Below, piece by piece: positions 941 to 23,558 of a DNA stretch of 41,139 nucleotides; position 1 is the first letter of the stretch; each line of letters starts with the position of its first letter. A program made the position numbers and the translations under genes. Where the stretch lies: NCBI GenBank assembly GCA_002841975.1, contig PHBQ01000020.1:1-41139 (forward strand), given 5' to 3'. The notes beneath the pieces are model-generated. The model made no database searches, was not told where the DNA came from, and worked only from the letters and a program-made list of their open reading frames with translations. The stretch comes from Candidatus Cloacimonetes bacterium HGW-Cloacimonetes-1 (GTDB taxonomy: Bacteria; Cloacimonadota; Cloacimonadia; Cloacimonadales; Cloacimonadaceae).

Positions 941-1079
941 CATCGAAACATCCGCCGCAGCTTTTGGAGAGGGACTTAAGGGTCTGTCACACTGGTCAAA
1001 GCACTGTGACAAAGCCCGGTTCCTGCAGATTAACACCAAAAACGGTGAGCACTGTGACAGCTGAATGTGTCACAGTGCT
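879..1079. repeat. AGCACTGTGAC repeat family (four direct, one inverted copy)
   Basis: Copies read AGCACTGTGA at 879-888, AGCACTGTGAC at 902-912, AGCACTGTGAC at 1000-1010 and AGCACTGTGAC at 1048-1058. An inverted copy lies at 1068-1079. A related TGTCACACTGGTCAAA lies at 985-1000. The sites end just before the HTH gene at 1117. They are probably binding sites for the HTH protein, the transposase or a repressor, comparable to the internal activating sequence of Mu. The core TGTGACA also occurs in the repeat array at 29981-30235. Confidence 0.75.
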
Positions 1080-1116
1080 TATCCGAAACACCAGTGATGA
1101 ATATTATGGGATTCTA
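941..1116. other. repeat-containing region before the HTH gene
   Basis: The reading frame of the HTH protein is open back to an ATG at 964. That upstream part runs straight through the AGCACTGTGAC repeats, translates to low-information sequence and has no ribosome site. I treat it as non-coding regulatory DNA and start the gene at 1117. Confidence 0.55.
1048..1079. promoter_or_regulatory. inverted repeat with perfect 12-bp arms
   Basis: AGCACTGTGACA (1048-1059) and its exact reverse complement TGTCACAGTGCT (1068-1079) are separated by 8 bp. It sits about 40 bp upstream of the HTH gene start. This is the only symmetrical site in the repeat group and the best candidate operator for a dimeric protein. 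Confidence 0.6.
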
Positions 1117-1443
1117 ATGAACAAGAAGATTGAAGCTGTCTGGCTAACCATTGAACGCATGGCCGAGATCAAGGGCTGTTCAAATCGAACAGTCTGGCGT
1201 TATATTGATAAGCATAGCATGCATACAGAGAAGCGTCAGGTAAAGATTGGCAGTGCCAAGGTGATTAAGACCTTCGTATTGCCCGATCCTGAGACTCTGG
1301 AATTGGAGTTCTCCGCCAGCATAAGGCAGAGACTAATGCCAGAGGAGTATCTGGAAACTGTGATTCCCATCGGGACACGTCTGGTATGGAGCTTGTTGGT
1401 CTATGGCTATGCTAATGTGATGGATTCAGGAGGAGTGGCATGA
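1117..1443 (+). CDS. small HTH protein of the Mu-like transposon
   Basis: This is a 108-residue protein, taking ATG at 1117 because the upstream extension is made of DNA repeats. Residues 6-32 (VWLTIERMAEIKGCSNRTVW and following) read as a MerR/excisionase or MuA N-terminal type winged HTH. The middle has short beta-rich sequence and the C-terminus is helical. The stop overlaps the transposase start (ATGA at 1440-1443), so the two are translationally coupled. In Mu the N-terminal DNA-binding domain is part of MuA. Here it may be a separate polypeptide that binds the nearby AGCACTGTGAC sites, but it could equally be a Ner/Cro-like regulator. The ribosome site at 1117 is weak. Confidence 0.72.
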   Translation: MNKKIEAVWLTIERMAEIKGCSNRTVWRYIDKHSMHTEKRQVKIGSAKVIKTFVLPDPETLELEFSASIRQRLMPEEYLETVIPIGTRLVWSLLVYGYANVMDSGGVA

Positions 1444-3488
1444 TAGATTATCAATTAGATCTGGATCAGTATCGCAAGTTTTATGCGGAGCTGATGAATC
1501 AGACAGATGCAGATGATAGCTCAAGTCCAGAAGATTTTGCTTGTGCAGTCGAATCTGATCTATCTCAAGACATAGTTCCTGATGTCAGTAATAGATCAGT
1601 GCAGCATGTCCCCGTCCCACAACAAGAACGAGAATTGGATCTGAAGCCCCAACAGCATATCCCGTATAAGAAAACTCAGGAAGCGATGCTGATGGCATCC
1701 TTCTGTCAGATTGTGCTTACCCGGTTAGAAGATTGTGAATCTAAGATCGAAGAGTGGAAACTCATCACTATAGAATACAACCAGAAGATTCTGCTGCCGG
1801 AGCTTTATGCTATCAAGGGTAAGCGAGATGAACGCTCTTTAAGAAGATGGGTGCAGAACTATCAATCCAATGACAATGATATGTATGCACTGGTGAGAAA
1901 AACCGATCCCAATGGTAAGACCAGAAAGATAACTTACTTTGAACAGAACTATCTGATCAACCTCCTGCTCAATCCCAATCAGATCAAGATTGGCTCTGCC
2001 ATCACTATTCTGAAAGGGTATGCCAGATTAGGATTATGCGAGTCTCCCTCAGATGAGCGCACTCTGAGACGCTTCTGTGATGAATGGTTAAGAGATAATC
2101 CCGCCATCAGCAGTCAGGCTCGCAAGGGAAGCAAATACGTTTCAGAGCATATCGTTAAAACCATCATGCGGGATAGTTCACTGCTCAAGGTAGGTGATGT
2201 ATGGGTAGCGGATGGACATACTCTGGCTTTTGATATTATCAATCCCCAAACGGGAAAAGCGCAGCGTATGACCATGATCATGGTGTTCGATTGGGCAAGC
2301 CGGTATCCGGTAGGTGCCAGTTTAGCATTAACAGAAGATAGCCAACACATTCAGACAGCCTTCCGTAACGGTTTTCTAAACTGGGGAGCATTACCTCGTT
2401 ATGTGTATCTTGATAACGGCAAAGCCTTCAAGAGTAAGCTCTTTCATGATAAGTGGGAAAATCACAATCTGGAGACTGAACTGGGAGGTATCTTCCCCAG
2501 GCTCAAGATTGAAGCTGCCTTTGCTGAAAGCTACAATGCCAAAGCCAAAGTGATTGAGAGATTCTTCAAAACCTTTCAGGATCAATTTGAACGCTTCCTC
2601 TCGTCATTTCGAGGATCATGCATAGCTGATAAACCATCCACGTTGATGCGTAATGAGAAGTGGGCAAAGGCACTGTTCGAGAGCAAACCTCCCACCCTTA
2701 GTGAAGCGATGCAGATGATCTCCTTTTACATTCGCTACATGTATGGACAAGCTCCTCATAGTGGATTAGAAGGTAAGAGTCCCTGGGAAGTGTTCAGCCA
2801 GGCTCCTCTCCCGGAAGATAGAAAAGTTGTGCCATCAGAGCTGAACTTTATGATGTTGGCGATGGTCAAAAAGAAGATCCGCAACGAAGGGATCAGATTT
2901 AATAAACTTCACTATTGGGATACAGCTCTGGTCGATTACATCGGCAAGGATGTAGTCATCAGATACGATTTTGCAGATGCCAGATGGATCTTGGTCTATG
3001 ACCTGCAAGATCGCTTCATCTGCCAGGCAGAACTACGCAGGGCACAGCATCCGTTTATCCATCTTGATAAGAGTAATCCTATCCCACACAGTCTGCTTAA
3101 CAAAGAGCATAAGCATATCCTAAAACTGCGACGGATGACCGAGCAAAGAGCTAAGTTTACGGTTAAGCAGACTCAGGCTGTAGTTGATCAGTTCTTGAAA
3201 CCTCTGACAAGCATACCGGATCAAAGTGCAATATTCATCCAGCCACCCATGATCGAAGCTCCCGTACCCGGAGCAGATGAGTTTATGCATGCCCTCGAAA
3301 AGCAAGTGATCAAAAACCTGCCCCCTTTAACTGAATACCGAACTGAAGACAAACTGGCTACCAGTAGTACCGAAACGATGCACAGTATAGAACAAGCCAT
3401 CCCAGACTATCCTGCGGATGACGATGATGTAATCCAACCCAGGCAGAAGAGCTTCGATGAGATGCTCAGATTTATAGGAATTAAATAA
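1440..3488 (+). CDS. Mu-type DDE transposase (MuA/TnsB family)
   Basis: This 682-residue protein, similar in length to MuA (663), would cut and join transposon ends. A DNA-binding region with two HTH-like parts (about 85-235) precedes an RNase H-fold integrase core. The likely catalytic triad is Asp258 (WVADGH), Asp325 (VYLDNGKAF) and Glu373 (KVIERFFK). The first two are 67 residues apart, the same spacing as MuA D269/D336. After it come a Mu-type beta-barrel domain (about 445-540) and an acidic, Pro-rich tail (about 600-682). The tail may contact the MuB-like ATPase. It is the second gene of a coupled operon (HTH, A, B, winged helix). Intact motifs and the full frame suggest an active enzyme. 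Confidence 0.93.
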   Translation: MIDYQLDLDQYRKFYAELMNQTDADDSSSPEDFACAVESDLSQDIVPDVSNRSVQHVPVPQQERELDLKPQQHIPYKKTQEAMLMASFCQIVLTRLEDCESKIEEWKLITIEYNQKILLPELYAIKGKRDERSLRRWVQNYQSNDNDMYALVRKTDPNGKTRKITYFEQNYLINLLLNPNQIKIGSAITILKGYARLGLCESPSDERTLRRFCDEWLRDNPAISSQARKGSKYVSEHIVKTIMRDSSLLKVGDVWVADGHTLAFDIINPQTGKAQRMTMIMVFDWASRYPVGASLALTEDSQHIQTAFRNGFLNWGALPRYVYLDNGKAFKSKLFHDKWENHNLETELGGIFPRLKIEAAFAESYNAKAKVIERFFKTFQDQFERFLSSFRGSCIADKPSTLMRNEKWAKALFESKPPTLSEAMQMISFYIRYMYGQAPHSGLEGKSPWEVFSQAPLPEDRKVVPSELNFMMLAMVKKKIRNEGIRFNKLHYWDTALVDYIGKDVVIRYDFADARWILVYDLQDRFICQAELRRAQHPFIHLDKSNPIPHSLLNKEHKHILKLRRMTEQRAKFTVKQTQAVVDQFLKPLTSIPDQSAIFIQPPMIEAPVPGADEFMHALEKQVIKNLPPLTEYRTEDKLATSSTETMHSIEQAIPDYPADDDDVIQPRQKSFDEMLRFIGIK

Positions 3489-3499
3489 GGAGAATACAG

Positions 3500-4243
3500 A
3501 TGAAACAAGGAAAGCTGGTTAGAACCCGTAATGTGGTGGAAGCTGATGAAGCTATCAATCTGCTCGTAAGACGCCCAAAAAGCGAGATGGTGGGTCTTGG
3601 ATTGCTCTATGGTAAACCTGGCTTGGGTAAGACAACTTATGCCAGTAGAATGGCTCTGTTGCGTAATTATGTTTATCTAAGGCTGGAAGCTACAACCACT
3701 CCCAAGTCCTTTGCCTTACAACTGATCAATGGATTGTACAATTACCTGAATCTGCAATATCCTCCGCGAACCGGTACTACCAATGCCATCTTTAGGAAGT
3801 GCATGGATATCATCGAGGAACATGAGGACATCGTGATCATAGTTGATGAGATAGATTATGCCTTCAAACAACCCCAGCTACTGGGTACGATCAGAGACAT
3901 AGTGGATGAGACTCTGGCAATCGTGATCCTGGTGGGAATGCAGAATGCCCGGGATCGTCTGGCTCAGATCAATGAATACTACTTTGATAGATGCAATTCC
4001 TTCTATCAGTTCGAAGCAGCAAGTTTAAAAGACATAATGCTGGTCGCAAAGGAAATAATGGAAGTGGAGATAGGCCAGGAACAACTCAATACCATCTATT
4101 TCAATAGCGGTGGCAATCTGCGCAAAGCCATGAAGATGCTTCATCTGCTGGAAGCCAATCTCAAGGCTGATCCAGATTACAGCATGACAAATCCAGAAAC
4201 GAGGAAGGTCACATGCTCAGCAACAGCGTTATCTCCAATCTGA
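3500..4243 (+). CDS. MuB-like AAA+ ATPase, transposition target selector
   Basis: This 247-residue protein starts 11 nt after the transposase with an AAGGAG-type ribosome site. Walker A is GKPGLGKTT (about residues 38-46) and Walker B is IVIIVDEID (about 112-120). MuB/TnsC/IstB-family ATPases form filaments on DNA, deliver target DNA to the transposase and give target immunity. At 247 residues it is shorter than MuB (312) and has no clear N-terminal HTH beyond a short basic start. The last ten codons overlap the next gene. The A-B gene pair supports a Mu-like rather than an IS-like element. Confidence 0.9.
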   Translation: MKQGKLVRTRNVVEADEAINLLVRRPKSEMVGLGLLYGKPGLGKTTYASRMALLRNYVYLRLEATTTPKSFALQLINGLYNYLNLQYPPRTGTTNAIFRKCMDIIEEHEDIVIIVDEIDYAFKQPQLLGTIRDIVDETLAIVILVGMQNARDRLAQINEYYFDRCNSFYQFEAASLKDIMLVAKEIMEVEIGQEQLNTIYFNSGGNLRKAMKMLHLLEANLKADPDYSMTNPETRKVTCSATALSPI

Positions 4244-4740
4244 TCTCCAGCTTCAATCAGCCCTTTACGCCTAAGATGCTTGCCAATATGACCGAGAGCG
4301 ATCAGCACGTTGTGGAAGCTATTCTGGATGAGCTGCTCAAGGAAGAGAAGATCAAGTGTATCTCTCAAGGCAACGCTGTCTATGTGCGAGCCAATCGCTA
4401 CTCTACCGGCATCAGTATAGACCCAAACTGCAAATGGAGATACGATGTCAATATGGCAAACCGGTTGCTTGATCTGATCGAAAGTAAAAGCTACCGCTCC
4501 ATCAGAGATCTGGCAATAGACTTCGGGAAGAGCAGGCAACTGGTATTTGTCTATCTTGAAGCCCTAGCCTCGATCAGCATCATCGGTATCAATCCACATG
4601 GCTACTACATCAAAACCAGGTTGGGCATAGAGTATCTCGGACAGCATATCCAGCCTGGGATTCTGGGTGTGCTGAAAAAGTATTCAGGGATATCCCACCT
4701 GAAGGTTCTGAGGATGCGCTGGCGGTATCGGATAGAATAG
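4213..4740 (+). CDS. double winged-helix protein of the transposon operon
   Basis: This 175-residue protein begins at ATG 4213, with GAGGAAGG just upstream, and overlaps the end of the MuB-like gene by 31 nt in another frame. Residues 18-55 (TPKMLANMTESDQHVVEAIL region) and 85-130 (SIRDLAIDFGKSRQLVFVYL region) each look like winged-helix DNA-binding units. I do not recognise a named family. Its position after A and B suggests a transposition accessory or regulatory protein. The C-terminus is basic (RMRWRYRIE), as expected for nucleic acid contact. This is the last rightward gene before the convergent cargo operon. Confidence 0.72.
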   Translation: MLSNSVISNLISSFNQPFTPKMLANMTESDQHVVEAILDELLKEEKIKCISQGNAVYVRANRYSTGISIDPNCKWRYDVNMANRLLDLIESKSYRSIRDLAIDFGKSRQLVFVYLEALASISIIGINPHGYYIKTRLGIEYLGQHIQPGILGVLKKYSGISHLKVLRMRWRYRIE

Positions 4741-4935: not shown

Positions 4936-7900
4936 TTAATGAACTATCTTTTTGATTAAATCTAACTCTGGTATTTTAAATGGCTTGAATTTGAAATTCG
5001 TCATATTGCCTTCGTTCACATAAACTGCTTTAAACAGACCCAGACTGGATGCATCATAACTATTCAGCAATTCAATGGAATCTTCTTTGCTCATCTGAAA
5101 GCACACTTTATTATCAAATTCTTTGATTATCTGCCTTGATAATCTTCGCTTGAGATTGGCGTTAATATCGACGTTTATAATGGTGTAAATGTTCACGTCA
5201 GGGCCTTCTTTAATAATTAAATTCAGTTGCTCATTCAAAATCTCTTCCGGAGATTTGTCACCAAATGGCATTGAGTTAGAGAATTCAATATCGATATCTC
5301 TAGCCTTCTGTATTTGATTAATGACAAAAATTGTACTTTCGTATTCCGCAGGATTTGTGGAGCTTTGAGTTCTGGATTTAACAGCTTTCGATAGCTGTAA
5401 TATGTTTTCAGAAAGCTCCTTTTTCTTGCCATAACAAATTGTATTGGGAAATTGTGAATCTAGCAGTTTAATACATTTTTCAAAGTCAGAATCCGGGGTC
5501 GAGAAGTCAATTATATACAGTTTTTTCACCCAGGTTGCCTGAATACACGCTGTAAAAATCATTGCGCCAAGCAAACCTTGAGTTACGCTGCTGTCTCTTC
5601 CAACCAGTAAAATATTCTCCGACCTAGTATTATTCAGGTGAACTGTCAAGGGCTCACCGATTGATATTGGCTCACCCAACCAAAGCGTGAATTTACTATT
5701 TCCAGAGATTTCAGTGATCTGGTTTTGAGAAAACGAGTGTTCTAAATCCGAATATGCATTTCCTTCAAAGATGTATTGTTTGTTATCATTCTCATGCCTG
5801 AAAGTGGAGTACTTTTTCGCGACTTTGCCAATTATATAGTCACGTCTGTCATCTTGAATCCAGGACACCTGGAAGTTGTGATTTCCTTCTATTGAACCAT
5901 TTTCTGGGTTGTAGATTGCTGCTCCGGGGTGCCGGAGAAGTTTAGCTGCTGTATTGTCATCTGACAATATGGAGCGTGAATCGTCATCACTGCATGAGAG
6001 GGCTATGCGAACTGCCATTTGGTTCTTAATCTCGGAAGACAGAGTGCCGGAAAGAGATTGGGTTCCTAAAATCAGATGAATGCCAAAAGCGCGCCCTTGC
6101 CTTACTAGTCGGTTAAAAAACTCTCTTGCTTTGTCTTCATTTACGCTTTTATCTGAAAAAAACTCTTGAAACTCATCAACAATCAGGATAATTCGAGCCA
6201 TTGTTAGTTTGGTTTTGGATCTGTACTCTGATAAATTTTCAACCCCTGTGCTGCGAAAAAGCTTCCCCCTTACATCCAGTTGTTTATTCAGAAACTCAAG
6301 AACACTAAAGCCAAACTCGCTTTCTCCGGCAATAGCTATCACTCTTGCATGAGGTATCTTGTTATCTCCATATACTTTAAATTCCACACCCTTTTTGAAG
6401 TCAATCAAGTAGAGTTCAACTTCAGCCGGAGAGTACTTTATCAGCAGATTGATAATGATAATGTGCAACAAGGTTGACTTTCCTGAGCCGGTTTTGCCTG
6501 CTATCAAAGCATGTTGCCTCGTCCCTTCTCCCAATTCCAGATACTGAATCCTATGGGCACCGGCTGGCCCCAACGGAATGGTTATATTCTTTGCCGAATC
6601 CCCGGTATGCCAGTCTTTTTGCGCAAACTTTGCTATTTCAAGCAGTTTCTCAAATTCAACCGTCACTTTGTGCTGCTTAATAGTGCTTCCAATATTGTCA
6701 AACACTTTGGCATAATGCATCTTATCCGTTAATAATGAGATGCTACAAGCAGAGTTATCAGTTATATTGGGGATAGATAAGCTCTCGTTGCTGATATGCA
6801 TTTCCAGCGGGTCATCTGTGAGATCCTTGATACGAATACCAGATTCTGGTCTAAGCTGATCTGTAACCATTAAAATAGTATGGAATCCGCAGCGGGGACC
6901 GTTTCTCATTATGCTTTGCAGTAACCTGAGCGCTTCCTCTTTATAACCAGTGTCGAACCCGGTTGGAAAGTCGGATATGATTAAGAAGCGATAAGGCTCT
7001 TGAATGCTCCCGTATTCACTATTGTATTCTTCAATTGATTTGTATGTTTTCCTCAGAGTGAATTGTATGATATTCTCCATCATATTCTTGTGCTCTTTGA
7101 GTAAACGAGTGAGCATATCGGTTTCAGTCCAGATCTTGTGATAAACAATCTGCTCATCATAATCTGCCAGTGCCATAAACTCAGAAAATGATTTTCCAAG
7201 ATCAATCGGGTCAAAGAACAGACAATAGCATTTGCCGGCTGGTATTTTATATAAACACCTTAACAGTAAACTTTTAACCATGTTTATAGCAATTTCTTTA
7301 TCTTTCTCGGATGCATAAACAATCATCGGTTTATAATCCGATAAGGTATAATAGAGAGGGAATGATTGCTTCTCTTTATTTACGGAAACGCTCATCTCGC
7401 CGATGTAATAAGATATTGAATCAGCGAAAGTTGCTGTCTTTCTGACGAAATTTGCCAGGTCCGTGATTTCTGACCGGATTGCAGCCAAACTATCTGATAT
7501 TTCCTTTTTTTGTTGCATAAATTGCTCATTAAGCCTGGATAATTTTACTTCACTTTCCTGCTTTAGCTTCAAATTATTGGTACTGTTACTTTCCTCAAGC
7601 AAGGTCTTTCGCTTTTGGTATGCAGCCAGTGCGTTTTGGCAAAATTCGGCATGCTTCGAATTGTCATCCTGGATCTGAGCATTTTTTTGGGAGTCTATTT
7701 GACTGGATCTATCTGTTAAGTGATTTTTACAGTTGGTTTTATGTGCTTTATAATCTCTTGTCAGAGTTTCCATTGTTTCCATGTGTCTTAGGTTTTCCAG
7801 TTCTGTATTTGTTTTGCTTTCGTTTTCGAAACTGCTAAGTTTTTTTCCCAGATCTTTTTTGATTTGCTTTAGCAAATCTTTGGATTTAGTTTCAAGGTTA

Positions 7901-9339
7901 TTATGGTCTGCTTCCAATTTCGATTTTAACATGGTTAACTCGTTCTTATGCTGTTGGGTGAGTTCTTTTTGTCGGGTAGCATATTTCAGATGAAGGCTAA
8001 CTATTTGTGGTATTATTTCTAGTTCCTGCGGTGAAAGACGCTTTCCGTTATAGGTTTGTTTATAGATACTGTCTGAGCGTAGTTCATCGATCTTGGCTTT
8101 GGCGAATGCACAGCTATTTTCTACATACAAATATCTGTTTGAATTAGGGTTGTAACTCTTCAGAACCGCAGAGTACTCGTCTAACAAATTTCCTACAGCT
8201 TGGTTTGAGTCACTGATTTTATTAAAAGTCGCTTCCAGCTTCCTCCAGCTTTCACATACTGAATGAAAGGATTCTCTTAAGGCAAGGATACTTGCCGTTT
8301 TATTGGACAATGCAATTATGCTTGAAACCAAAATACCCGCACTTGAGATTATCATCAGTAATGAGAGTCCTATAACCTGTGAGAAAATGGACAAACCAAG
8401 AATGAACAGCACAATCATAGCTATAATCGTGTTATTGTACAATTTTCTTGATTTAACATAATGATCGGTTCTCCCAAAGTCCTTATAGGTATTGTGGAGT
8501 TGATTATGGAAGTTAGAAAGATATTCATGATACAGTGTCAGGATGTTATTGCCAGCTTTTTCGTCCTGCAATGATTCAGAATTTATGTTTGTATGGGTAT
8601 CCCAACCGGCACTGCTGAGTTGTTCAAGAAAACTATCATTCAGAAGTTTAACTGTATGAAAGCTCTTGGCTTCTTCATTTTTTTTACTGGAATAGTAATC
8701 ACTATTATGAAAATGCTGAGATCCTTTCCAAAATGATTCAATGGAACTGATTACCGGGTAATTGATAATGATTTCTTCCTGCAGCCGAAAGTCGAGTTTA
8801 AGCTTATCATTCTCAATCGCCTCTGCCTCTTTCAGGTTTTTTATCTTAGCCTCATAGGTTTCGATAAATTTAAGTTCACTTTTATTGACTTTCTCCGTGA
8901 GTGCTTTTTTAGATTGCTTAAACTCCTCTGTATACTTATTCTTTAGGGTGTCGTAGTCGTTCTGCGCTTGATTTACAGATTGTTTGAGAGTATTTGTTAT
9001 GGACTTGCACGTATCCTGATATTTGTTTTTTTCGGCGGTCTTGCTGTTATTGTATAAATCCTCATTCTGCTCTGTATTCTGAGTGAACTGATTCTGAAGA
9101 TCTTTCAAGGCTGCATCATTATCCTCGATAATGGACGCCATCTCTTGCTTGTGCCGGCTGTTTTCTGTCTCAGTTTTCTGAGAGTATTCTTTTTCAAGGT
9201 TTTGCAGCTCAGTCTTGTACTTCAGCTTAAAGGTTTCGAGTTCTTTGGAATAATTCGACGAAAGGTTATTCTTCTCCTCAAAATACTTTGAAGATACGGA
9301 AATAAAATTTTGCTTTAGCCTGTGCACCTTGTCATTCAT
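4936..9339 (-). CDS. FtsK/EssC-like membrane ATPase with long coiled coils
   Basis: This is a 1467-residue protein. Residues 1-300 are strongly charged coiled coil. About 303-346 holds two hydrophobic membrane segments. About 450-640 is a second coiled coil. About 720-920 has an alpha/beta segment, and about 925-1170 is an FtsK/SpoIIIE ATPase with Walker A AGKTGSGKST (about 947) and Walker B IILIVDEFQEFF (about 1050). A second, degenerate ATPase-like part (ILLVGRDSS, about 1245) lacks a P-loop Lys. Tandem FtsK domains behind a membrane anchor are the plan of EssC/EccC of type VII secretion. EssC has N-terminal FHA domains, which this protein replaces with coiled coil. It overlaps the 79-residue WXG-like gene by 4 nt and ends the cargo operon. 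A DNA-pumping or defence role is possible instead of secretion. Confidence 0.88.
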   Translation of the reverse strand: MNDKVHRLKQNFISVSSKYFEEKNNLSSNYSKELETFKLKYKTELQNLEKEYSQKTETENSRHKQEMASIIEDNDAALKDLQNQFTQNTEQNEDLYNNSKTAEKNKYQDTCKSITNTLKQSVNQAQNDYDTLKNKYTEEFKQSKKALTEKVNKSELKFIETYEAKIKNLKEAEAIENDKLKLDFRLQEEIIINYPVISSIESFWKGSQHFHNSDYYSSKKNEEAKSFHTVKLLNDSFLEQLSSAGWDTHTNINSESLQDEKAGNNILTLYHEYLSNFHNQLHNTYKDFGRTDHYVKSRKLYNNTIIAMIVLFILGLSIFSQVIGLSLLMIISSAGILVSSIIALSNKTASILALRESFHSVCESWRKLEATFNKISDSNQAVGNLLDEYSAVLKSYNPNSNRYLYVENSCAFAKAKIDELRSDSIYKQTYNGKRLSPQELEIIPQIVSLHLKYATRQKELTQQHKNELTMLKSKLEADHNNLETKSKDLLKQIKKDLGKKLSSFENESKTNTELENLRHMETMETLTRDYKAHKTNCKNHLTDRSSQIDSQKNAQIQDDNSKHAEFCQNALAAYQKRKTLLEESNSTNNLKLKQESEVKLSRLNEQFMQQKKEISDSLAAIRSEITDLANFVRKTATFADSISYYIGEMSVSVNKEKQSFPLYYTLSDYKPMIVYASEKDKEIAINMVKSLLLRCLYKIPAGKCYCLFFDPIDLGKSFSEFMALADYDEQIVYHKIWTETDMLTRLLKEHKNMMENIIQFTLRKTYKSIEEYNSEYGSIQEPYRFLIISDFPTGFDTGYKEEALRLLQSIMRNGPRCGFHTILMVTDQLRPESGIRIKDLTDDPLEMHISNESLSIPNITDNSACSISLLTDKMHYAKVFDNIGSTIKQHKVTVEFEKLLEIAKFAQKDWHTGDSAKNITIPLGPAGAHRIQYLELGEGTRQHALIAGKTGSGKSTLLHIIIINLLIKYSPAEVELYLIDFKKGVEFKVYGDNKIPHARVIAIAGESEFGFSVLEFLNKQLDVRGKLFRSTGVENLSEYRSKTKLTMARIILIVDEFQEFFSDKSVNEDKAREFFNRLVRQGRAFGIHLILGTQSLSGTLSSEIKNQMAVRIALSCSDDDSRSILSDDNTAAKLLRHPGAAIYNPENGSIEGNHNFQVSWIQDDRRDYIIGKVAKKYSTFRHENDNKQYIFEGNAYSDLEHSFSQNQITEISGNSKFTLWLGEPISIGEPLTVHLNNTRSENILLVGRDSSVTQGLLGAMIFTACIQATWVKKLYIIDFSTPDSDFEKCIKLLDSQFPNTICYGKKKELSENILQLSKAVKSRTQSSTNPAEYESTIFVINQIQKARDIDIEFSNSMPFGDKSPEEILNEQLNLIIKEGPDVNIYTIINVDINANLKRRLSRQIIKEFDNKVCFQMSKEDSIELLNSYDASSLGLFKAVYVNEGNMTNFKFKPFKIPELDLIKKIVH

Positions 9340-9575
9340 TGCTCAAATTCCTTATAGTAATAGTTTACAATACTGTTGACTGATCTTTTTGCCTCAGAAT
9401 AATCCTTAATCGAGTTCGTTAACTTTTTACTATATCCCGCACTTAACTCATGAAAGTTAAAGAAAAAGCTTTCGGCTTTTCTATCCCTCCACTTGGTTTT
9501 GAGCCTTTCAATATGAGCAGATACGATACCGTTAATTTGGTTTAAACGCTCCTGGGTTGATTCTTCGCTCATCAT
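9336..9575 (-). CDS. small WXG100-like helical hairpin protein (79 residues)
   Basis: The two-helix pattern has a turn motif W-R-D (KTKWRDRKAE, about residues 28-37) and ends in YKEFE, which matches the YxxxD/E export signal of type VII substrates. At 79 residues it is slightly shorter than classical ESAT-6-like proteins. A GGAGGT ribosome site precedes it, and the start can be 9575 or 9572. It overlaps both neighbours by 4 nt, so it is made together with the FtsK-like ATPase. It is probably a partner or substrate of that ATPase, and could pair with the 91-residue WXG-like protein as EsxA pairs with EsxB. The family call is from motif shape only. Confidence 0.72.
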   Translation of the reverse strand: MMSEESTQERLNQINGIVSAHIERLKTKWRDRKAESFFFNFHELSAGYSKKLTNSIKDYSEAKRSVNSIVNYYYKEFEQ

Positions 9576-10048
9576 TTCTGACCTCCGGTGGTGCTTCTTA
9601 CAGAGAAATAGTTTTGTAAAGATTGTTCAAAATTGCTCAAAGATATTGTCATTTGAGGAATATCCTTGGTAGTAAACTCCTCGAAGTTGTCGATTTTATT
9701 CAGTAGGTTATGTTTGGCCAATTCGAATTGAGATCTTGCGACAATCAGTTCAGAATATAGTTGCTGGAGTTTTTTCTCTTTTTCTATGACGACCAGTAAG
9801 CTTACTACCCCCAAGCCAATCACAAAGACCATTGTTGTTGCCAAAGCTAAGCCAACAGAGGCGAATTGAAGGCTTTTATAATATGAGAGTTTTTTTGTTA
9901 TCATCCCTTCTGTTTCAGCAAGCGAACGGTCGGTACTCGCAATATCTTTTCTGATTTCCTCAAAAAACTCCTGTAGTTTCAAAGCATATCCACATAAAAC
10001 CTCTTTGGATTCTTCGAATACCTTTTCATCCAGAACTTTGACGCTCAT
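9572..10048 (-). CDS. small membrane protein with flanking coiled coils
   Basis: This 158-residue protein has helical, charged residues 1-55, one or two membrane segments at about 57-87 (LQFASVGLALATTMVFVIGL and beyond) and a coiled-coil C-terminal half. No signal peptide or named family is visible. It lies between the two WXG-like genes, 2 nt after one and overlapping the other by 4 nt. It is therefore likely an inner-membrane component of the FtsK-like machine, in the place that EssA/EssB/EsaA-type proteins fill in type VII systems. Sequence similarity to those is not evident. Confidence 0.75.
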   Translation of the reverse strand: MSVKVLDEKVFEESKEVLCGYALKLQEFFEEIRKDIASTDRSLAETEGMITKKLSYYKSLQFASVGLALATTMVFVIGLGVVSLLVVIEKEKKLQQLYSELIVARSQFELAKHNLLNKIDNFEEFTTKDIPQMTISLSNFEQSLQNYFSVRSTTGGQK

Positions 10049-10050
10049 GA

Positions 10051-10326
10051 TTACCTCTGTTCAAGATAATCATCAGCCGCTTTTGCCTTGCGGTATAAAA
10101 ACGGGACTACATCCCTGGAAGCGGCTAAAAAGATTGTTATCTGCTTGAGAGTATTCTTAAATTCATCATCAAATCTCACATATTCCTGATCTTGCCAGGT
10201 TATCCCGAGATTGTCCAGATTGTTCTTCATAGACCTGAAACTGTCTTCCAATTTGTCATTGAAACCATTCAAATACAAGGCAAATTTCCGTAGTTCTTCT
10301 GGGGTAACAATTGCTCTTCTCATCAT
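10051..10326 (-). CDS. WXG100-like protein (91 residues)
   Basis: The length and the central ITWQDQEYVRFDDEF (about residues 44-58) match the ESAT-6/WXG100 pattern of a Trp-x-(Gly/Asp) turn followed by aromatic and acidic positions, between two amphipathic helices. A GGAGG ribosome site lies before ATG 10326 (10323 also possible). It heads a four-gene, tightly coupled unit ending in the FtsK/EssC-like ATPase, as in type VII secretion loci. It could be a secreted substrate or a structural partner. WXG pairs are unusual in a diderm defence island. Confidence 0.78.
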   Translation of the reverse strand: MMRRAIVTPEELRKFALYLNGFNDKLEDSFRSMKNNLDNLGITWQDQEYVRFDDEFKNTLKQITIFLAASRDVVPFLYRKAKAADDYLEQR

Positions 10327-10418: not shown

Positions 10419-10862
10419 TCAATCGTATTCTAACTCACTCAGATCAAACTTAAGTGTGTTGCAGCTCTCGTTAATTGTGCTCTGGGTAGCTTCATCGAAA
10501 CCTTCATGGCAGTCTGCTTCTATTTCGATTTTGATGCTTGCAGTTACAGTGCGACTATCATATAATAGACTCTGATGGCTCTTCCACATTGCCTTTAAGC
10601 GTTGCTGTCCGTCCAATAACTGCTCGGCAACGTTCCTTCCATCTTGTGGAGTTCCAGCCAAGTGTTTACTGCGAAACTGCTCAGGTCCATCAACTCTTAA
10701 AATTAGAGCTGCCCCTGTTGGTAAGCCCTTTAACATTGAGCGAAGTAAGTATGATACTTCGTTGTGAGTCCATGCTTCAAATCTCTGGAATCGGGGTAGG
10801 GTTAATTGTCCTAATTCTATAAGGTTGAACCACTTGTACAAAGGTCTGTTGAATGCTTGCAT
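10419..10862 (-). pseudogene. truncated DUF262 (GmrS-like) protein fused to a copied DUF499 tail
   Basis: Starting at ATG 10862 (AGAGGAT ribosome site) the product has 147 residues. Residues 1-95 are the N-terminal part of a DUF262 domain, with LTLPRFQRFEAW and the conserved LLDGQQRL motif. DUF262 proteins such as GmrSD and SspE use this motif in NTP hydrolysis to control a nuclease, and usually exceed 400 residues. From [14 protein letters not shown] onward the sequence is a near-copy of the end of the DUF499 protein, about 90% identical at DNA level. The gene therefore looks like a recombination product that lost the DUF262 C-terminal portion. It may be a remnant or a new small protein. The frame stays open through the junction. 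Confidence 0.78.
10432..10550 (-). repeat. copy 2 of the DUF499 3'-end sequence
   Basis: These 119 bp align without gaps to 13895-14013, with about 12 mismatches by my count. Similarity begins at the codons for TVTASI and ends at the stop region. Sequences beyond both borders are unrelated. Confidence 0.9.
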
Positions 10863-10936
10863 GTCATATCCTCTTTTATCGTATGTTCGCAACAAAGGTG
10901 TATTTCAATGCTAAGAATCTCAATACGAAATGCCAA

Positions 10937-11584: not shown

Positions 11585-13261
11585 CTAGACCTCCTTCTTG
11601 GCTAAGTCGTACAGATAGCTAACATAGATCAGAGTCTTGAAATCATGCTCGATTGGAATCCACTCTGCAACAGATACTGGCTTATCAGTTTTGCCTATTT
11701 GAACTTTATGATAATCTCTCAGGTAACCAATTAATGGCTTACCTGTAGCCTTGTGATTATGAAGTATGATCTCTAAGTAAGGTATATCGATAAGACAGTA
11801 ATTAAACGAGCAACCCTTATCGGATAGAGCTGGTTCAAGTTTTGTTAATTCTCCGTGAACCAAGCTTGGAATTAGAACTCCGAAGTCCTTTTGTACTTGG
11901 AGAATGATTGTTTTATCTAAAGTGCACTTATGTATTACTTCTCTGTGTTTCGAATAATCACCAACACATGAGAATAACTCATCAATCTTGGTTAGTGTTT
12001 TCTTAAGAACATTACTAACTCGTTCCACATACTCATGTGTTCGAATTGACGCTGGATCATCTCGAACTACATTTGAGGTTCTTGTGCCTTTAATCTCTAT
12101 GACAATTACATGAAGATCAATACGATCAATAACTACAAAATCAGGGCTTCGTACAACAGAGCCACTACGCTGATACTCGAATTCTGGGATGATAATGTAT
12201 CGCTCCGGCTCTAATGTGAATTCTAGCAAATCTCCGACATAAAACTCATATATAAGCCCCATGGTATTCCTAGTATTCGCATTTAGTTCACTATCTAGGT
12301 ACTCATTGAATCTGATTGGAAATTCTCTAAGACAAGTGAATAGATCATAAAAGTTTGGAATTATCTTCTGATCTTCAACTTGCACTAGGGGGTGCTTTAA
12401 TAATGGGCTTTCATATCGATAACTCGAAGTTTGTATTCCAGGAATATCAGTTTGCGCCATATGATAATACACAGAGTAGTTGAGTCTTAGATCAAATATA
12501 GACTGAGAGAGCAAAGTCATCAGTTTTTCCAGACTATGATGAGATTCAAGAAATGACATTAGCTGTGACACATCATGTAGAAAGGTAGCAGAAGATGATC
12601 GTCGTTGGAGTATTGAATCTAAAACTTGGATTACTGCATCTTTATACTCATCTGCTGTAGTGCAAGCTTTCAAGCTGTAATAGATTGAAGTATCTTTGTA
12701 GATAGATAGTAGATTTTCCGTCAAATCCTTAATGCCAGTATATATGTTTCTACAACTCATGCCAATTAAATTACTCAGAGTTGTTTTTATGTCAATTGAA
12801 GTGGGGAATCTTCTCTGTATTTCAGTTCTAAACTTCGGTTCGGTTACATTGAGAATAAAATCCAGCCTTATCCAATTAGTAAAAATACTTTGGTCTGGGA
12901 TTTGAACAAATTGATGGTTCGTTAGATGAATAATAGCGTTACGAACGATAGCTTCGATTTCGGAAGGGTGAGGGTTTGGATATTGATCAAAGAATCCAGC
13001 TTCCTCAGTTTCAAGTGTTGTTCTCGCTTCTTCATGCATTGATACTACATTGCTAACATCGAGTTTGAGACTGACTAATTGTGAGGTGTCCCTGAAAGCA
13101 ACTATCTTGAGCATTACATCAAGAGTTCTGAAGCTGAAGTAGGAGAATGGAGTTTTGTTCTCGTTTAGCATAGTTTCACAGAAGCTGATGTAGCTCATGA
13201 TTGAAATTGGACATAATATATCAAGTGCTAGCAAATAGGTTCTTTGCTCATTCTCGTTCAC
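11585..13261 (-). CDS. large uncharacterised protein with PD-(D/E)XK-like motif
   Basis: This 558-residue protein belongs to no family I can name. The first 300 residues look helical. About residues 365-400 contain RSPDFVVID then HVIVIEIKGTR, a good fit to the D...(D/E)XK core of restriction-type nucleases, followed by a helical region. No membrane segment or ATPase motif is visible. It ends one base before the Shedu-like gene and follows the small 186-residue gene by 35 nt, so the three form a coupled cassette inside the defence operon. A sensor-effector nuclease role is inferred. Confidence 0.7.
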   Translation of the reverse strand: MNENEQRTYLLALDILCPISIMSYISFCETMLNENKTPFSYFSFRTLDVMLKIVAFRDTSQLVSLKLDVSNVVSMHEEARTTLETEEAGFFDQYPNPHPSEIEAIVRNAIIHLTNHQFVQIPDQSIFTNWIRLDFILNVTEPKFRTEIQRRFPTSIDIKTTLSNLIGMSCRNIYTGIKDLTENLLSIYKDTSIYYSLKACTTADEYKDAVIQVLDSILQRRSSSATFLHDVSQLMSFLESHHSLEKLMTLLSQSIFDLRLNYSVYYHMAQTDIPGIQTSSYRYESPLLKHPLVQVEDQKIIPNFYDLFTCLREFPIRFNEYLDSELNANTRNTMGLIYEFYVGDLLEFTLEPERYIIIPEFEYQRSGSVVRSPDFVVIDRIDLHVIVIEIKGTRTSNVVRDDPASIRTHEYVERVSNVLKKTLTKIDELFSCVGDYSKHREVIHKCTLDKTIILQVQKDFGVLIPSLVHGELTKLEPALSDKGCSFNYCLIDIPYLEIILHNHKATGKPLIGYLRDYHKVQIGKTDKPVSVAEWIPIEHDFKTLIYVSYLYDLAKKEV

Positions 13262-13857: not shown

Positions 13858-13887
13858 AATATCTCCTAATAAGAATTCTCGGGGATC

Positions 13888-16728
13888 TTACTCAAACTCA
13901 CTCAGATCAAACTTGAGTGTGTTGCAGTTTTCTTTGATTGTGCGCTGTGTAGCTTCATCGAAACCTTCGAGGCAGTCTGCTTCGATTTCGATTTTGATGC
14001 TGGCTGTTACAGTTGGGTTATTAATCAAATGCAGAACAATCTCTTCCACAATGGTAGCAAAGTCTGCTTTGGCTCGAGTAGGCTTCAGATTTACTCGACC
14101 ATAAAAGCGCTTCTTGTATTGTACTGGTTTGGGTGTAGGAGGTGTTGTTCCGCTACTTCCGCTTCCGGGAGGAGTTGTGCCACTACCACCGGTTGTACTA
14201 CCAGTAGCAGTTCCACCTGTTCCTGGTTGCGGATCATCTGGTGGATCAACTATCACAACCTTTTTGGACTGATACTCTGCTGCCCACAAAGAGTCAATTA
14301 GCAATAGTGAACTATCAAACACAGGTGTCATGGGCTTCCCATAAGAGAATCCAATATACTCATCGCCTTCCTTGCCATAAGCTAAGCCAAAGAAGTCTCT
14401 GCTCTCTGCTCCAGCATTGATAGCATTCGAGAATGTGTTTTCATTCTTGAGCCTGGGCAGATACAGATAACAACATGTGCTATGCCATACATCCTTTGCT
14501 CTCACTTCTTTCACATCTTCTTTCCAGAACCACTTTTTAAGCAGATTATGCAGATGAATCGGTGCCCACCCGGTAATCAGATGCTCGTTTTCCTTGAGTA
14601 TCCGTTCAACCTCTTCCACAATGCTTGGCACACTTGGATTGATGGTGAAATGCTCAAATTTGTCTCCCGGCACTTTATCCTGCTCGGGTACTAATAACCA
14701 TTTGTATGTTTCTTTTACAATGCGGTCTAATGATTTCTTAGCATCTTCGAATCCGGTCTTTGCCTGACGGTTTTGGTACTGGTCGAGATTTAAAACTTGA
14801 ATATCTTTGTTTATGGATTCCCAAGCCAATAAGGTAAGCACGTGGTCTTTCAGTCTGCCTATTACATCACCATCCGCAGCCAGAAAGATTAAGCGGTTCT
14901 GTTTCAGTCTCGGTTGTTCTCCTCTGGTTGTGAGTATTTTCTTAGCTCCATCACTATTCGGAGTACCGCCAATCGCTAAACTAACTCCAGAACGCTGATA
15001 ATAGGCATCAGGTGGCAAGATAACAAGTCGAAGTGAGTAATCATCCGGAATGTCATCAGAACGCGTGAAAATGTGTATTCCGTCGAAGCAGCCATTGGAC
15101 AGTAATCGCTGAAGCTGATCTTTGATTACCGGTACTACATCGTCCTTATCGTTAAAACGACGTTTGCGGTCTTCCATCTCTCGCCTGAGGTTCGGACTAG
15201 TATCAAACCAGAATAGTCTGTTATCAGCGCTGTTCAGGTAATGCAGTCGATCTATCAGACGTTTCATTGCGTCAATATATACACCCAGAACCTGTCCGGG
15301 TTGTGCCACGCCCAGAAGTATGCGTTTCAAATCTATCCCCCGGGATGTCCTGGAAGTGCTTAGTGCAGCAGCGTGAGGAGCAGAGCCCAAAAAGATAGTT
15401 CTGGTTAACCTACGGCAGACCTGCGCTTGTCCAAATCTGGGCTCTGCTCTTTCGATCAGCACAGGTTCTGAGTTGCTGCCATCAACATCCTTGGTCAGGA
15501 CTGGATTCCATCCCTGAGACAAGTATTTGATTACTTCATTCTGAATATTGGCATCTGCCAAGGGTATGCTTGCAGGCATGATCAGGGGCTCTGTATTGCC
15601 ATCCGTCCATAGTTTGTGAATCACTTTTGCCATTAACTGCAAAACACCTCTGGTTCGCTGAAAATTATCCAGGCAAGACCAATCTTCATACAAGCGATCA
15701 AATACTTCCGGATGGATGGGATATGATTGCTTTAGACGTTCAAAATACCTGGTTTCCTGGGTTTCTTCTGGGAAATCATTTTTATTTGAAATATAGAGAT
15801 CGGCATAGCCACGGCACGTTTCTTCCAAGTTTACTTGGTCTGGGATCGTATTGAACAATCTTCTGCGCACTATTTCAAAAGCTTCTTCTACCGCTACAGG
15901 TTTCCAAAGTGCTTCAGTTCTGCCAAAAATATGCTCTATAGATCTTAGTGTGACAACACCTCGCTCTCCACCTGCCTCTGGGATAGATTCTGGCAAAGAT
16001 GCCAGCAAGATAGCAGTTGGCACAGCCTTCAAGGACTCGGTGAGTGCTTGAAGAAATGACATGTTGGAACCAAAAGTTCCTCCCGAAAAGCTTTTCCCCT
16101 CTTCGAATTGCCGTACATAAGCCACTAACTCATCAACCAGAATGACACAGGGAGCATATCTTTGTAAAAGTGGAATCAGAATCTCTTTTCCTGGTGAAGT
16201 ACCACTCAGGTCTGCATCTTTTACCATTTCATAGCCATCAACTTTACCAAGTTGCCAAGCAAGCTCTCCCCAAATTGTGTTAATCCGTGTTCCCTCTCTC
16301 ATTCTTGAGGTTCCGGGGGCAAGCTGATTACCGTCAATTACCGCTATTCTGGCTTTGGGTAGTTCGGCAATTCCAGCTCTATCGATCAGTGTTGTTACTC
16401 CTTGTAAATCAGAAAGAGCTGCCTCACCTTTGGCAAGATGATAAACAGCCAGCATGGTATGCGTTTTACCGCCACCAAAAGCTGTTTGCAGCTGAATGAC
16501 CGGGTCACCACCATTACCGCTAAGACGATGGATTACAGAATCTAACAGCAACCTCATACCTTCAGTGATAAAGGTTCTTTGAAAGAACATAACTGGGTTT
16601 TGGTATTCTTCACTGGCATCACCGGTATGCACTCGTGAAAGGTCTGCTGCAAATTCTGATTGCTTAAAAGTGCCTTTCAGCACGTCCTGATGCGGTATTG
16701 CGATATCTCGCCAAGCTTTGATAGCCAT
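13888..16728 (-). CDS. DUF499-family ATPase of the methyltransferase-helicase defence core
   Basis: This 946-residue protein has the diagnostic DUF499 N-terminus: FAADL, then EYQNPVMFF, then Walker [10 protein letters not shown] (about residues 82-92) and Walker [12 protein letters not shown] (about 193-203). The middle is helical with a VIHKLW-type segment. About 830-870 is a Gly/Thr/Pro/Ser linker. The end is a compact domain (YGRVNLKP to LSEFE) seen in other DUF499 proteins. DUF499 ATPases occur beside DUF1156 methyltransferases and large helicases in defence islands. Their mechanism is not settled, and a role in sensing or remodelling DNA is inferred. It follows the methyltransferase by 44 nt, with GAGGAT before ATG 16728. 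Its last 119 bp are duplicated at 10432. Confidence 0.9.
13895..14013 (-). repeat. copy 1 of the DUF499 3'-end sequence (likely parent copy)
   Basis: This is the natural end of the DUF499 gene. It matches 10432-10550 at about 107 of 119 positions, in the same orientation. It is probably the source of the copy because here it completes a conserved domain. Confidence 0.9.
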
Positions 16729-16772
16729 GTTTATATCCTCATGTTATTCATTAATCAATATAAGTTTCAAAC

Positions 16773-19679
16773 TCATAATTCTATTTCGATTGGGGTATCT
16801 ATAATGCCGCTATCTTGAGCTTGCTTTTCGATAGAAAGCCAGGCAGTAACAAGATCATTATAGGGTCTGGCATCTTCTGCCCAGCCTTGACGTTCACACA
16901 GAGTATATAGCAAGAAAGCAAGTTGTCTGGCTGTAGCAGCTAACTGTGGAACTGCCGAAGCTATCTCTGCAGTAGCGGATTCTCCACTGCTTTGATGCGC
17001 CCGGATTAGCTGATGCAACACTTCCCAGACAGGAGTCCTGTCATCTTTTAGAGGATTCCAATCCGAAGGATATTCAGCAGGGCGATACAGACGAACTTTA
17101 CCACTACCGGCAACCAAAACTCCGCTATCACGCACACCTTCCACAGAAAGTCCTTTCGCCTTGGCAAGCACTTCTGCTTCACCATAAGCACCTTCTTTCC
17201 AGCCATATTCACTGAACCACTGTAGGCAGAAGCGAGTATCATTATCCCAATCGCCTTCCCGTTCTTTGAAATACTCATCCAGAGCTTTGTTGATGAGGAT
17301 AAGCGCAGTATGGACTGTCATGGGATTGCCATCAGATTCCAAGATGGCTCTGTATTTTGAATACACAGACATACCGGGGCCGATAGCTGATTGAGCTAAA
17401 TCAACAGGAGCTACAGGACTTGAGGTTTCGCTTCCATTTATCATTGTTTCCAATGCTTCTGGGATAGCTTTATATAATTCTCGTATGAAGTCTTTCCGGC
17501 TTATCGTTTCGGGATTCGATTCACGTTTGCGGCATACCAGTATTATGCTTGAAGCTAAGGCATTCGCATCTTTTTTTAAATGATTTGTATATTCCGTGCT
17601 CATAGGCCACGTTCCGCCTATTACAAACCCTGATTGTATCACAGCTTCCAAGAATGTCTCCCAACCAGTTGAAGACGTTCCTGTAACCGATCTTTCGGAT
17701 TGCTTGAAAGCATAGTAAATGCTTACCGGAAATGCATGATTAGTTTGCTCAGCGATTCTATGCATAGCTTGCTTCATCATAGTCATAAAGAACAACTCCG
17801 ATTCTTTCATATTCTTATGCCTATAATGAGATGCGACTATTTCGTCTTTTTTAGGTGTTTCGATTGTTGAGAAGAGTGAACCAAAAATGTCATGCAATAC
17901 TCTTTTCTGCCAAATGTAAAAAAAATCTGATAGGTCTGCATACATTATGTTGTCATAATAGGGAGGATCTGTTGAAACAACTTTCCCTTGGCTAATACTC
18001 TGAGTTGCTGCGTTAGCTTGCTTGCTGTGACCGAGTGATTTTGCCGTTGTATTGGGTAGAAATCTCACTACTTGTTCGATTCCTAACATGAAGTTACCTG
18101 ATGAAGAACAAAATGGATTTGCTTCAGCATAATCCCAAACCATAGCAATTGCTTGCCGGCCTAATGTGCTTGTTATTGAGTCTCTACCTGTATGCCAACT
18201 ACACAATGATGACCAATAATTTACGGCTTTATCAACTGCTATCGATAAATAGACCAAAACACTATCTGCATATGCTTTAGAACCATATCCACCATCATCA
18301 AAAGACAATTCATCAGAAACTGAATTGGTTAGATCACAGTCATGTCTTATTTTTGAATGGATTTCTTTGATCAAATCAGAAAAAGTTACAAGTGCTTTCA
18401 ACTGTCTTTTTGTAAACAAGTCTCCAAATTTACACATGCCATAAAGCGGTAGTTGGTCTGCACTTTTCCCAACAAGCTCTTGCTCCGGCATCCAAGTAAT
18501 ATCTGTAGAAAGTGCAACATTTTCTTGATGTTCGTCTGGCGACAAATACACCCTGCAGTTCTTTCCCTCAGCTACAATTGCCATAAGCTTGGCACCCATT
18601 CTACCTGCTTGACCTTCTGCTTTGATGTATTTCCCATCTATTGGAGTATTAGAAAGCAAGCAATAGAAATTAGATGTTTTCCCTGCAGCTTTAGTTCCTT
18701 TCTTAACTTTCAAAAGATCATTTGGAATACCAACATGTACTTTAAACGCGTATTTATCTCCGCTTAACAACGGAACAATATAGGCTTCCTTATCCTTTTT
18801 GTCGGATAGAAGGAAGGTTGAAGTCAGAGGTACATCAACATGAGAGTATATGGGGTTTGGGCTCTTTACAGTTCTTGCCCAAATATAAGCGATGACTGTC
18901 AGCTTTTTGCCTTGATATTGTGCCAAGTCAGGACGCTCTGTTACTATTTCTGGTGTAACTTCTATAGGAAGATATTGGTGACCGATACGTTTATATGCTT
19001 CTTCTCTTACCCAATGTCCATAGCGACGGACATCTTCTGCCAGCCCGGTTACTCCGTCCCAAGTGTATTGCCCTGTATCAAGCTGTTTTTCATGTTCTGG
19101 AATAGGACCTATTGGGCGTCTGCCCACAAACTTGGGAGGGATCTCGATCATTGCTTTATTGATGAGGACTGCCACTGGATTGAGGTCACTTGCCCATGAT
19201 TCCAGTCCCAACCTCTGAGCTTCCAAAGGAATAGAACCACCACCTGCAAAGGGATCATGGAAAGCAGGAAGTCTATCAGGGTTAAACAGCTCTGACGCTT
19301 TTGGATGGTCTTTATTCAATTCACAGGTAACTTTCCAGCTTTTGCGAATCTCGGCTCTGGCTTCATTTAAAACAGCTTCGTTATTTGTGTTTTCCCACCT
19401 CACCAGTTTCCTTATGATTTCAAAAAGGCGTTCCCTTTCCTTATTCGCGTCAGCTTTTCTCTTATAGCCAATTTTTAGATCTTCATCCCATCCGGGGTCA
19501 TTAACCATCTGGGCAAAAAGCACTGCTCTGGCAGCAGCCAGAGGTCGCCTTGCCCAATACAAATGCAGCGTAGAAGGATGCCCATGTCGAATGGACTTTT
19601 CACGAATGCAAGCTTCGTTAATTTCCTTGAGTGGGAGCGCTACTTCTATCAGCTTCTTGGGTGCTTTTACTTTGTACAT
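16773..19679 (-). CDS. DUF1156-type amino-methyltransferase (DNA modification)
   Basis: This 968-residue protein has an N-terminal DUF1156 signature ([20 protein letters not shown], about residues 34-53). The AdoMet-binding motif is [14 protein letters not shown] (about 141-154). The catalytic motif is TDPPYYDN (about 568-575), typical of N6-adenine or N4-cytosine methyltransferases. A long insertion separates the two motifs, as in the family. The C-terminal 250 residues look helical and may contact DNA or the partner ATPase. It presumably marks host DNA so that the helicase/ATPase partners spare it. AAGGAA precedes ATG 19679. It lies between the SNF2 helicase and the DUF499 gene in one operon. 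Confidence 0.92.
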
Positions 19680-19758
19680 AAATTCCTTTTATCGTTCAGG
19701 TCTTTTTGTTAGTTTCTCATTCATTTATGTGAGCATTTTGCAAGCCCAAATTACGGTA

Positions 19759-19805
19759 GCATTACGGATGAAATACGGATCGCATCCGTATTTCATCCGT
19801 AATGC
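19759..19805. repeat. perfect 22-bp inverted repeat with 3-bp loop
   Basis: The arms 19759-19780 and 19784-19805 are exact reverse complements around CGC. Each arm carries two TACGGAT units. It sits in the 179-bp gap between the helicase stop and the methyltransferase start. There is no T-run after it in the direction of transcription, so it is not a standard terminator. It could be an RNA hairpin that sets the methyltransferase/helicase ratio, a protein-binding palindrome or a small repeat insertion. Confidence 0.85.
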
Positions 19806-19858
19806 ATAAGCAATTCAAGCAAGGATGCATTTTCCGTATTCTATGCTTCATATTTATC

Positions 19859-22800: not shown

Positions 22801-23395
22801 AATCCTCGAAGGGGTTTCCGCTATGTGATTGGGCTTCCATATCACGGGAGAAGATGAAGAAGTCCAGTCCGAACTTCTCATACATTTCATCTTGCCATTG
22901 CTCAACTAAAGAACCGGGAGCAATAATCAAGATCCGCTTGGCATCGGCTCGCATGATCAGTTCCCGCATATACAGCCCTGCCATGATGGTCTTTCCGGCT
23001 CCCGGATCATCAGCAAGGATATAGCGCAAAGGCTGCCTGGGAAGCATGGATTCATAAACTGCGGTGATTTGATGAGGTAAGGGTTCAACGTTTGATGTAT
23101 GTACTGCCATCATAGGATCAAAGAGGTAGGCGAGATTGATCCGACAAGCCTCCACAGCCAGCTTAAAATCAGCTCCATGTGCGTCAAATGACCAAGGTCG
23201 ACCGGATACTGCAAGCGCAAGATTCATCTCGTCAGTGCGGTAAATCAAGCGTTCTAATAGTGAGCCATCCGTTTTCTTGTAATAAACTGTGAGCGCATTA
23301 GGTCCGATGGGTTCACTCGTGACGATGCGAACCACTTCTCCAGGTTCTAAGCCTTGGATCTGAGCCCCAGCCTTTATGTCTTCTAATCTGATCAT
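19859..23395 (-). CDS. SNF2-type helicase with C-terminal DUF3883-like domain
   Basis: I place the start at 23395 ([16 protein letters not shown]), where family members begin. The frame is open to 23473 but the extra 26 residues look non-coding. The product is 1178 residues. Walker A is DDPGAGKT (about 130), the DEAH box is VVIDEAHK (about 228) and motif III is MTATPHKG. The second RecA lobe has [11 protein letters not shown] and [14 protein letters not shown] (about 565-615). The end (about 1045-1130), with GWDI and HIEVKGR, is a DUF3883-type, nuclease-fold-like domain. DISARM DrmD and related defence helicases share this plan. Together with DUF1156 and DUF499 it forms the presumed anti-phage core. 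Confidence 0.92.
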
Positions 23396-23558
23396 ACCTA
23401 TTCCCATATAGTATCTTAACTGTTTTCTAATCGCACTTTTCAGGCTTGAGAAACAGCTCCTCCAAGGATGCAAACAGAATCAGTTTTTTGATAAATCCAA
23501 ACAGATTATCAAAATATCGCAAGGGCTCTGGCTGTCAATGAGAAAAGCAACTAATAGC

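Follow-up and report, generated by a model that had tools for sequence, protein, structure and literature searches.

The locus lies in a window of 41,139 nucleotides of contig PHBQ01000020.1 from Candidatus Cloacimonetes bacterium HGW-Cloacimonetes-1 and consists of an operon on the minus strand (4936-10326; all operon features below are on this strand) with four intact ORFs of, in gene order, 91, 158, 79 and 1,467 amino acids: a WXG100-like hairpin protein (WXG1; 10051-10326), a coiled-coil protein (9572-10048), a second small hairpin protein (WXG2; 9336-9575) and an EccC/EssC-type ATPase with N-terminal coiled coils (4936-9339). Genes 1 and 2 are spaced by 2 nt, while genes 2 and 3 as well as 3 and 4 overlap by 4 nt, so that the translational coupling proposed in the initial annotation, along with its coordinates, can be considered real. 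A toxin or immunity gene was not recognised in the operon, nor was a nuclease gene. The host genome is that of a diderm (six Omp85 matches); the operon carries no outer-membrane component, and the Omp85 proteins are present elsewhere in the cell. The 91-aa protein is the one WXG100 match in the whole genome, and neither YukC/EssB (PF10140) nor YukD/EsaB (PF08817) gave a match there, B. subtilis being among the matching controls in the former search and the matching control in the latter. The ubiquitin-like YukD/EsaB is also missing from T7SSd. An EccB search of the genome gave no match, as was the case for the control genomes.

WXG1, with a W44-Q-D46 turn, matches Pfam WXG100 at E 8e-6 and 26.4 bits, slightly below the cut-off of 27.3. 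Held-out profiles, built without the window's sequences and then run over its 170 ORFs, recovered WXG1 at E 1.6e-28 (26 homologues) and returned WXG2 as the best match of the WXG2 profile (E 2e-4) and the second match of the WXG1 profile (E 3.5e-5); profile-profile comparison of WXG2 with WXG1 gave E 7e-7. In the PDB, the WXG1 family profile hits H. pylori HP0062 (3fx7, E 1.7e-17) and EsxB (E ~1e-9). WXG2 was modelled by AlphaFold as a helical hairpin (H4-28/H32-78, pLDDT 88) with W29-R-D31 at the turn; a Foldseek search of the PDB with this model gave no credible match, which can occur for a lone two-helix hairpin. The initial description of two small hairpin proteins with W-Q-D and W-R-D turns is thus borne out by the profiles and, for the 79-aa protein, by AlphaFold. 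Its 'export-like' YxxxE motif did not survive the comparison with homologues: it is unconserved, occurring in 1 of 32 WXG2 proteins (the window's own) and in none of 27 WXG1 tails, and we rejected it as an export signal and regard it as a chance match. YxxxD/E is absent from the C-terminal tail of all 27 WXG1 proteins as well. What is conserved in the WXG1 family is a C-terminal tail with an invariant Tyr, usually YLxQR at the extreme C-terminus and YLEQR in the window.

The gene between the two hairpin proteins occupies a 'carrier/effector' slot that holds coiled-coil proteins of ~175-215 aa in planctomycetes and coiled-coil-nuclease proteins elsewhere. The 158-aa protein was placed in this slot by its position and by a weak profile match: the held-out carrier profile ranks it first of the 170 ORFs, yet only at E 0.025, and its homology to the planctomycete carriers is weak. 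A Kyte-Doolittle scan revealed a single hydrophobic stretch (aa 59-92; 9773-9874) with a strongly hydrophobic, Gly/Val/Leu-rich core, in line with the membrane coiled-coil protein initially postulated for the operon; a nuclease domain was not found in the 158-aa chain. A hydrophobic core of this kind, encoded in the effector slot, could be taken to indicate an interbacterial toxin system in which the WXG/ATPase machine delivers the 158-aa protein as a small effector that damages membranes, all the more as a relative on a Helicobacter plasmid encodes in that slot a protein with an HNH/colicin-DNase domain and, after it, a SUKH immunity protein, a pair that follows the logic of protein-toxin export. 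We nevertheless consider this quite unlikely for the window, where no immunity gene follows the 158-aa gene and where the hydrophobic stretch lies mid-chain, flanked by coiled coils, instead of forming a C-terminal toxin domain; moreover, the planctomycete carriers in the slot, which are devoid of the hydrophobic stretch, look non-toxic. As the 158-aa protein lacks a toxin domain, a role as anchor or carrier is more likely for it than one as a toxin. The carrier of a Phycisphaerae operon (L032:6303-7283) bears a C-terminal Imm33-like domain (E 5e-11), and the carrier of locus L027 resembles it by eye.

The 1,467-aa protein matches Pfam FtsK_SpoIIIE at E 1.8e-30 and EssC TIGR03928 at E 1.3e-46, the latter match being partial and far under the model cut-off. 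Its family profile places EccC (4nh0, 2e-58) and YukB (9e-42) ahead of FtsK (1e-26) in the PDB, and the AlphaFold model of aa 598-1467 (pLDDT 86) comprises three alpha/beta domains, for which Foldseek ranked the EccC cytoplasmic domain first (9e-30 over 877 columns), with FtsK following from rank 8. EccC is hence the nearest relative of the ATPase core in sequence and fold. The middle domain alone scores about equally against FtsK and EccC, such that it is the three-domain architecture and the WXG partners that carry the EccC assignment. The candidate 'just an FtsK' was rejected: ordinary FtsK matches in the window's order cover the middle domain only. FtsK gamma, the DNA-orienting domain, and FtsK_4TM are absent from the Pfam matches of the protein up to E 10. 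No FHA domain was found in the ATPase; long N-terminal coiled coils are read from its sequence and the modelled part begins helical, which substantiates the notion of coiled coil in place of FHA domains.

Walker A and B motifs are limited to the middle domain (about aa 907-1202; 5734-6621; Walker A GKTGSGKS at aa 948-955, 6475-6498) in 43 of 43 aligned homologues, and no Walker A was found among them in the first (aa 657-880; 6700-7371) or third (aa 1207-1467; 4939-5721) ATPase-fold domain. The 'tandem FtsK-type ATPase' of the initial annotation is therefore FtsK-type with one active domain, the two flanking domains being degenerate. In profile-profile alignments, with six proteins on the EccC side, the middle domain scored 230 against EccC D1, 140 against D2 and 72 against D3, and the third domain 71 against D2, 60 against D1 and 41 against D3; the whole chain aligned in a D0-D1-D2 register with 301 versus 160 for D1-D2-D3, and this register was seen with four different EccC references. 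A domain-swapped control of the whole-profile alignment still reached 261 compared with 301 for the true order, so that D0 and D2 were assigned from domain order and individual scores. Equating the middle domain with EccC D1 is robust, that of the first domain with D0 is positional, and D0-D1-D2 is the best register, from which it follows that D3 is missing. In classical systems, the C-terminal signal of the substrate docks on D3 (PMC9436818, PMC6954902). With D3 absent, the conserved WXG1 tail (YLEQR here) would replace the YxxxD/E-D3 interaction and is a likely docking signal.

Membrane segments were called by simple hydropathy scans (Kyte-Doolittle). A transmembrane hairpin in the ATPase (aa 300-346; 8302-8442) had been overlooked in the initial annotation. 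A hydrophobic segment ahead of the ATPase core is found in 42 of 47 evaluable PVC-type (planctomycete-type) homologues. At several loci without the ATPase hairpin, a gene for a transmembrane protein adjoins the ATPase, namely in Deinococcus, cyanobacteria, Lachnospiraceae, Brevibacterium and Hazenella, and the membrane anchor may thus be supplied in trans where the hairpin is lacking. Small transmembrane proteins next to hairpin-less ATPases are encoded at L024:8180-8608, L088:11520-11855, L092:7838-8440 and L106:2773-3207. By the same scans, the TerY-P/CoCoNuT/Helicobacter branch has neither an ATPase hairpin nor an adjoining transmembrane protein.

The four genes travel together, as the initial annotation had anticipated: WXG pair, coiled-coil protein and ATPase co-occur in operons across phyla. 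In a tblastn search of plasmids, Caballeronia and Rhodococcus gave full-length ATPase relatives, and Deinococcus, another Rhodococcus and Helicobacter gave partial matches; small WXG-like proteins are encoded in their neighbourhoods, along with a coiled-coil protein. A scan of genome contigs identified 80 loci, mainly from Planctomycetota, the others belonging to Verrucomicrobiota, Electronema, Chloroflexota, cyanobacteria, Bacillota, Actinomycetota and Pseudomonadota. Iterated profiles applied to ORFs near the ATPase detected 106 WXG-type ORFs across 64 loci, many of which hold two, one immediately before the ATPase, and the order WXG1, coiled coil, WXG2, ATPase recurs in PVC-type loci. Where 2 kb or more of sequence lie upstream of the ATPase, which is the case for 42 planctomycete-type loci, one or more WXG genes are present at 35 loci and two or more at 21; both counts are lower bounds, since genes on draft contigs are missed by simple ORF calling. 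The minimal plan of type VII secretion, a WXG pair, a coiled-coil protein and an EccC-like ATPase, is accordingly found again in homologous operons.

In a tree of the middle domain, the window groups with Electronema (100/86) and then with Litorilinea (99/90) in the planctomycete-type clade and is separate from the Pseudomonas/Caballeronia/Helicobacter clade. Planctomycetota, Electronema and Chloroflexota make up the window's branch, whose ATPases mostly have a transmembrane hairpin; the branch of the window copy itself is long. Copies were found in 28 of 196 planctomycete genomes and in 1 of 125 genomes of the host phylum (the window's own), and the host has therefore probably acquired the operon horizontally. 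A phage-borne origin was rejected, with one distant match in viral contigs. Such rarity within the phylum and the long ATPase branch might suggest that the operon is a passive, possibly decaying passenger of a mobile accessory island and devoid of present function in its host, the more so as it is flanked by transposition genes on one side and, on the other, by a defence cluster that has recombined and contains a duplicated 129-nt segment. This strikes us as very unlikely, however, given that the four ORFs are intact and that their start/stop overlaps, the Walker motifs, the WXD turns and the C-terminal tail have all been kept.

To the left of the operon are transposition genes encoding a Mu-type transposase and a TniB-like ATPase; together with small flanking genes, the transposase and the TniB/AAA ATPase span 964-4740, likely the left end of a transposon adjoining the operon. 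To its right follow Shedu, a GmrSD_N fragment and a complete HMA (helicase-methylase-ATPase) system (13888-23473), each gene of which is full-length relative to its PADLOC model, confirming that the neighbours are defence genes; VWA and McrBC were not found among the annotated neighbours in the window. A duplicate of the 3' end of hmaC forms the tail of the truncated GmrSD_N gene (10419-10895), giving a 129-nt direct repeat (10422-10550 and 13885-14013, 88% identical); its copies bracket Shedu and two further genes, and it is a probable recombination footprint. A 558-aa protein (11585-13261) with weak matches to the Shedu C-terminal domain (E 0.0014) and GapS1 (E 0.0016) may be a nuclease and a distant member of that superfamily. 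Further to the right, a gene for a 682-aa PHP and Pol III alpha-like protein (24970-27018), shorter than full DnaE, adjoins genes for an AAA protein with IetA-like matches and for DUF6946.

The enrichment in defence islands that had been predicted for the operon was not apparent in its relatives: with crude gene calling, 140 neighbour proteins of planctomycete-type copies and 135 control proteins matched 48 and 40 PADLOC families, respectively, at E<=1e-10, mainly the kinase models PD-T4-6 and C3a189 in both sets, which is no clear excess. Near the copies, mad3 was additionally matched in 3 members and each of two DRT models in 2, numbers too small to support a claim. A different branch of the ATPase family does sit within CoCoNuT/TerY-P defence operons. 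As the planctomycete relatives lack clear enrichment, the defence neighbourhood is a trait of the window's island and not of its branch. These data also bear on the notion of a membrane DNA-translocating or DNA-degrading defence machine, whose ATPase would pump or sense invading DNA while the small helical proteins would be regulatory. The location next to Shedu and the complete HMA system would be in line with such a function, as would the FtsK/SpoIIIE domain, which is also matched by the PADLOC SspH and mad8 ATPase models and whose middle-domain fold fits FtsK structures well in Foldseek. Yet defence enrichment is lacking around the planctomycete relatives, the architecture is the three-domain one of EccC with one active domain, neither FtsK gamma nor FtsK_4TM is among the Pfam matches, and WXG100 proteins are partners in protein secretion. 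A DNA-directed machine thus seems unlikely to us, and protein translocation is more likely than DNA translocation.

We therefore favour, as the probable reading of the operon, a minimal protein translocase of the EccC/EssC type that is tethered to the inner membrane. Here, the ATPase would be anchored at this membrane through its own hairpin and would probably oligomerise, ATP being hydrolysed by the D1-equivalent domain only. The two WXG hairpins would form a dimer that, together with the coiled-coil protein, might constitute the cargo or a cargo adaptor; the WXG1 tail could then serve for docking on the ATPase, and the membrane coiled coil would fill the slot that carries a nuclease in some relatives. 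Both translocation and its direction are what we infer, next to the observed gene set, homology, domain states, membrane segments, tail and co-occurrence. Work on type VII secretion has been confined almost entirely to Gram-positive bacteria and mycobacteria. In diderms, a compact relative of four genes, without D3 and the usual accessory parts, would reveal the minimal core of the machine and offer a small system for reconstitution.

The initial annotation was not aware of any described system with exactly this gene set. The kind of operon has, however, been predicted in print (PMC3482391, PMC4978471, PMC11090510), and the window copy is a variant of it; experimental demonstration of transport by any member was not found in the literature searched, nor was a described planctomycete WXG100/T7SS. 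Compared with classical T7SSa/T7SSb and with T7SSc-j (PMC11217815, PMC9436818), the window shares an EccC/EssC-type ATPase with a transmembrane pair and an active D1 as well as WXG100 proteins, but has three NTPase domains instead of four (D0-D3), D3 being absent, and differs in the lack of YukD/YukC from the genome, the lack of a conserved YxxxD/E and the diderm host. The 'WXG100 secretion system' of H. pylori, HP0062/HP0066 (PMC4978471; HP0062 structure 3fx7, PMC3397514), is likewise a cluster of a small hairpin protein and an FtsK-type ATPase, and the WXG1 profile match to HP0062 is in keeping with this likeness; an HNH/EndoVII nuclease and a DnaK homologue, which are listed for the H. pylori clusters (PMC4978471), have no counterpart in the window.

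The EssC-like modules associated with CoCoNuT (Bell et al. 2024, PMC11090510) have in common with the window an ATPase with an N-terminal coiled coil and a single active domain, a pair of WXG100-type proteins and a coiled-coil partner; for stand-alone operons, that paper cites Anantharaman 2012. The ATPases of these modules are described as free of transmembrane domains, and a coiled-coil-nuclease protein and a DNA-mimic-like protein lie between VWA genes, whereas the window has transmembrane hairpins, lacks nuclease, VWA and McrBC, and falls on a separate tree branch; 'no transmembrane domains' does not hold for the window's branch. The 'mobile versions of T7SS' with an accessory distribution in planctomycetes, verrucomicrobia and cyanobacteria, among other phyla, consist of solo WXG proteins and a YueA-like ATPase with three HerA/FtsK domains, the middle one alone active (Zhang et al. 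2012, PMC3482391, Table 1 note 6). The window agrees with this prediction in its WXG proteins and in three ATPase domains with Walker A/B in the middle one only, and also has the N-terminal coiled coil; it departs from the description in encoding two WXG-type proteins and two membrane proteins, and the membrane hairpin, carrier protein and domain register do not feature in the Zhang note. The picture of the predicted 'mobile T7SS' can hence be revised in that many members are membrane-anchored and that the active domain corresponds to EccC D1, not D2. Whether one may go further and speak of a distinct diderm class of type VII-like systems, characterised by a membrane-anchored D0-D1-D2 ATPase without D3, a new C-terminal signal (usually YLxQR) on the WXG pair and a coiled-coil carrier open to nuclease or immunity fusions, is a proposal that we put forward tentatively.
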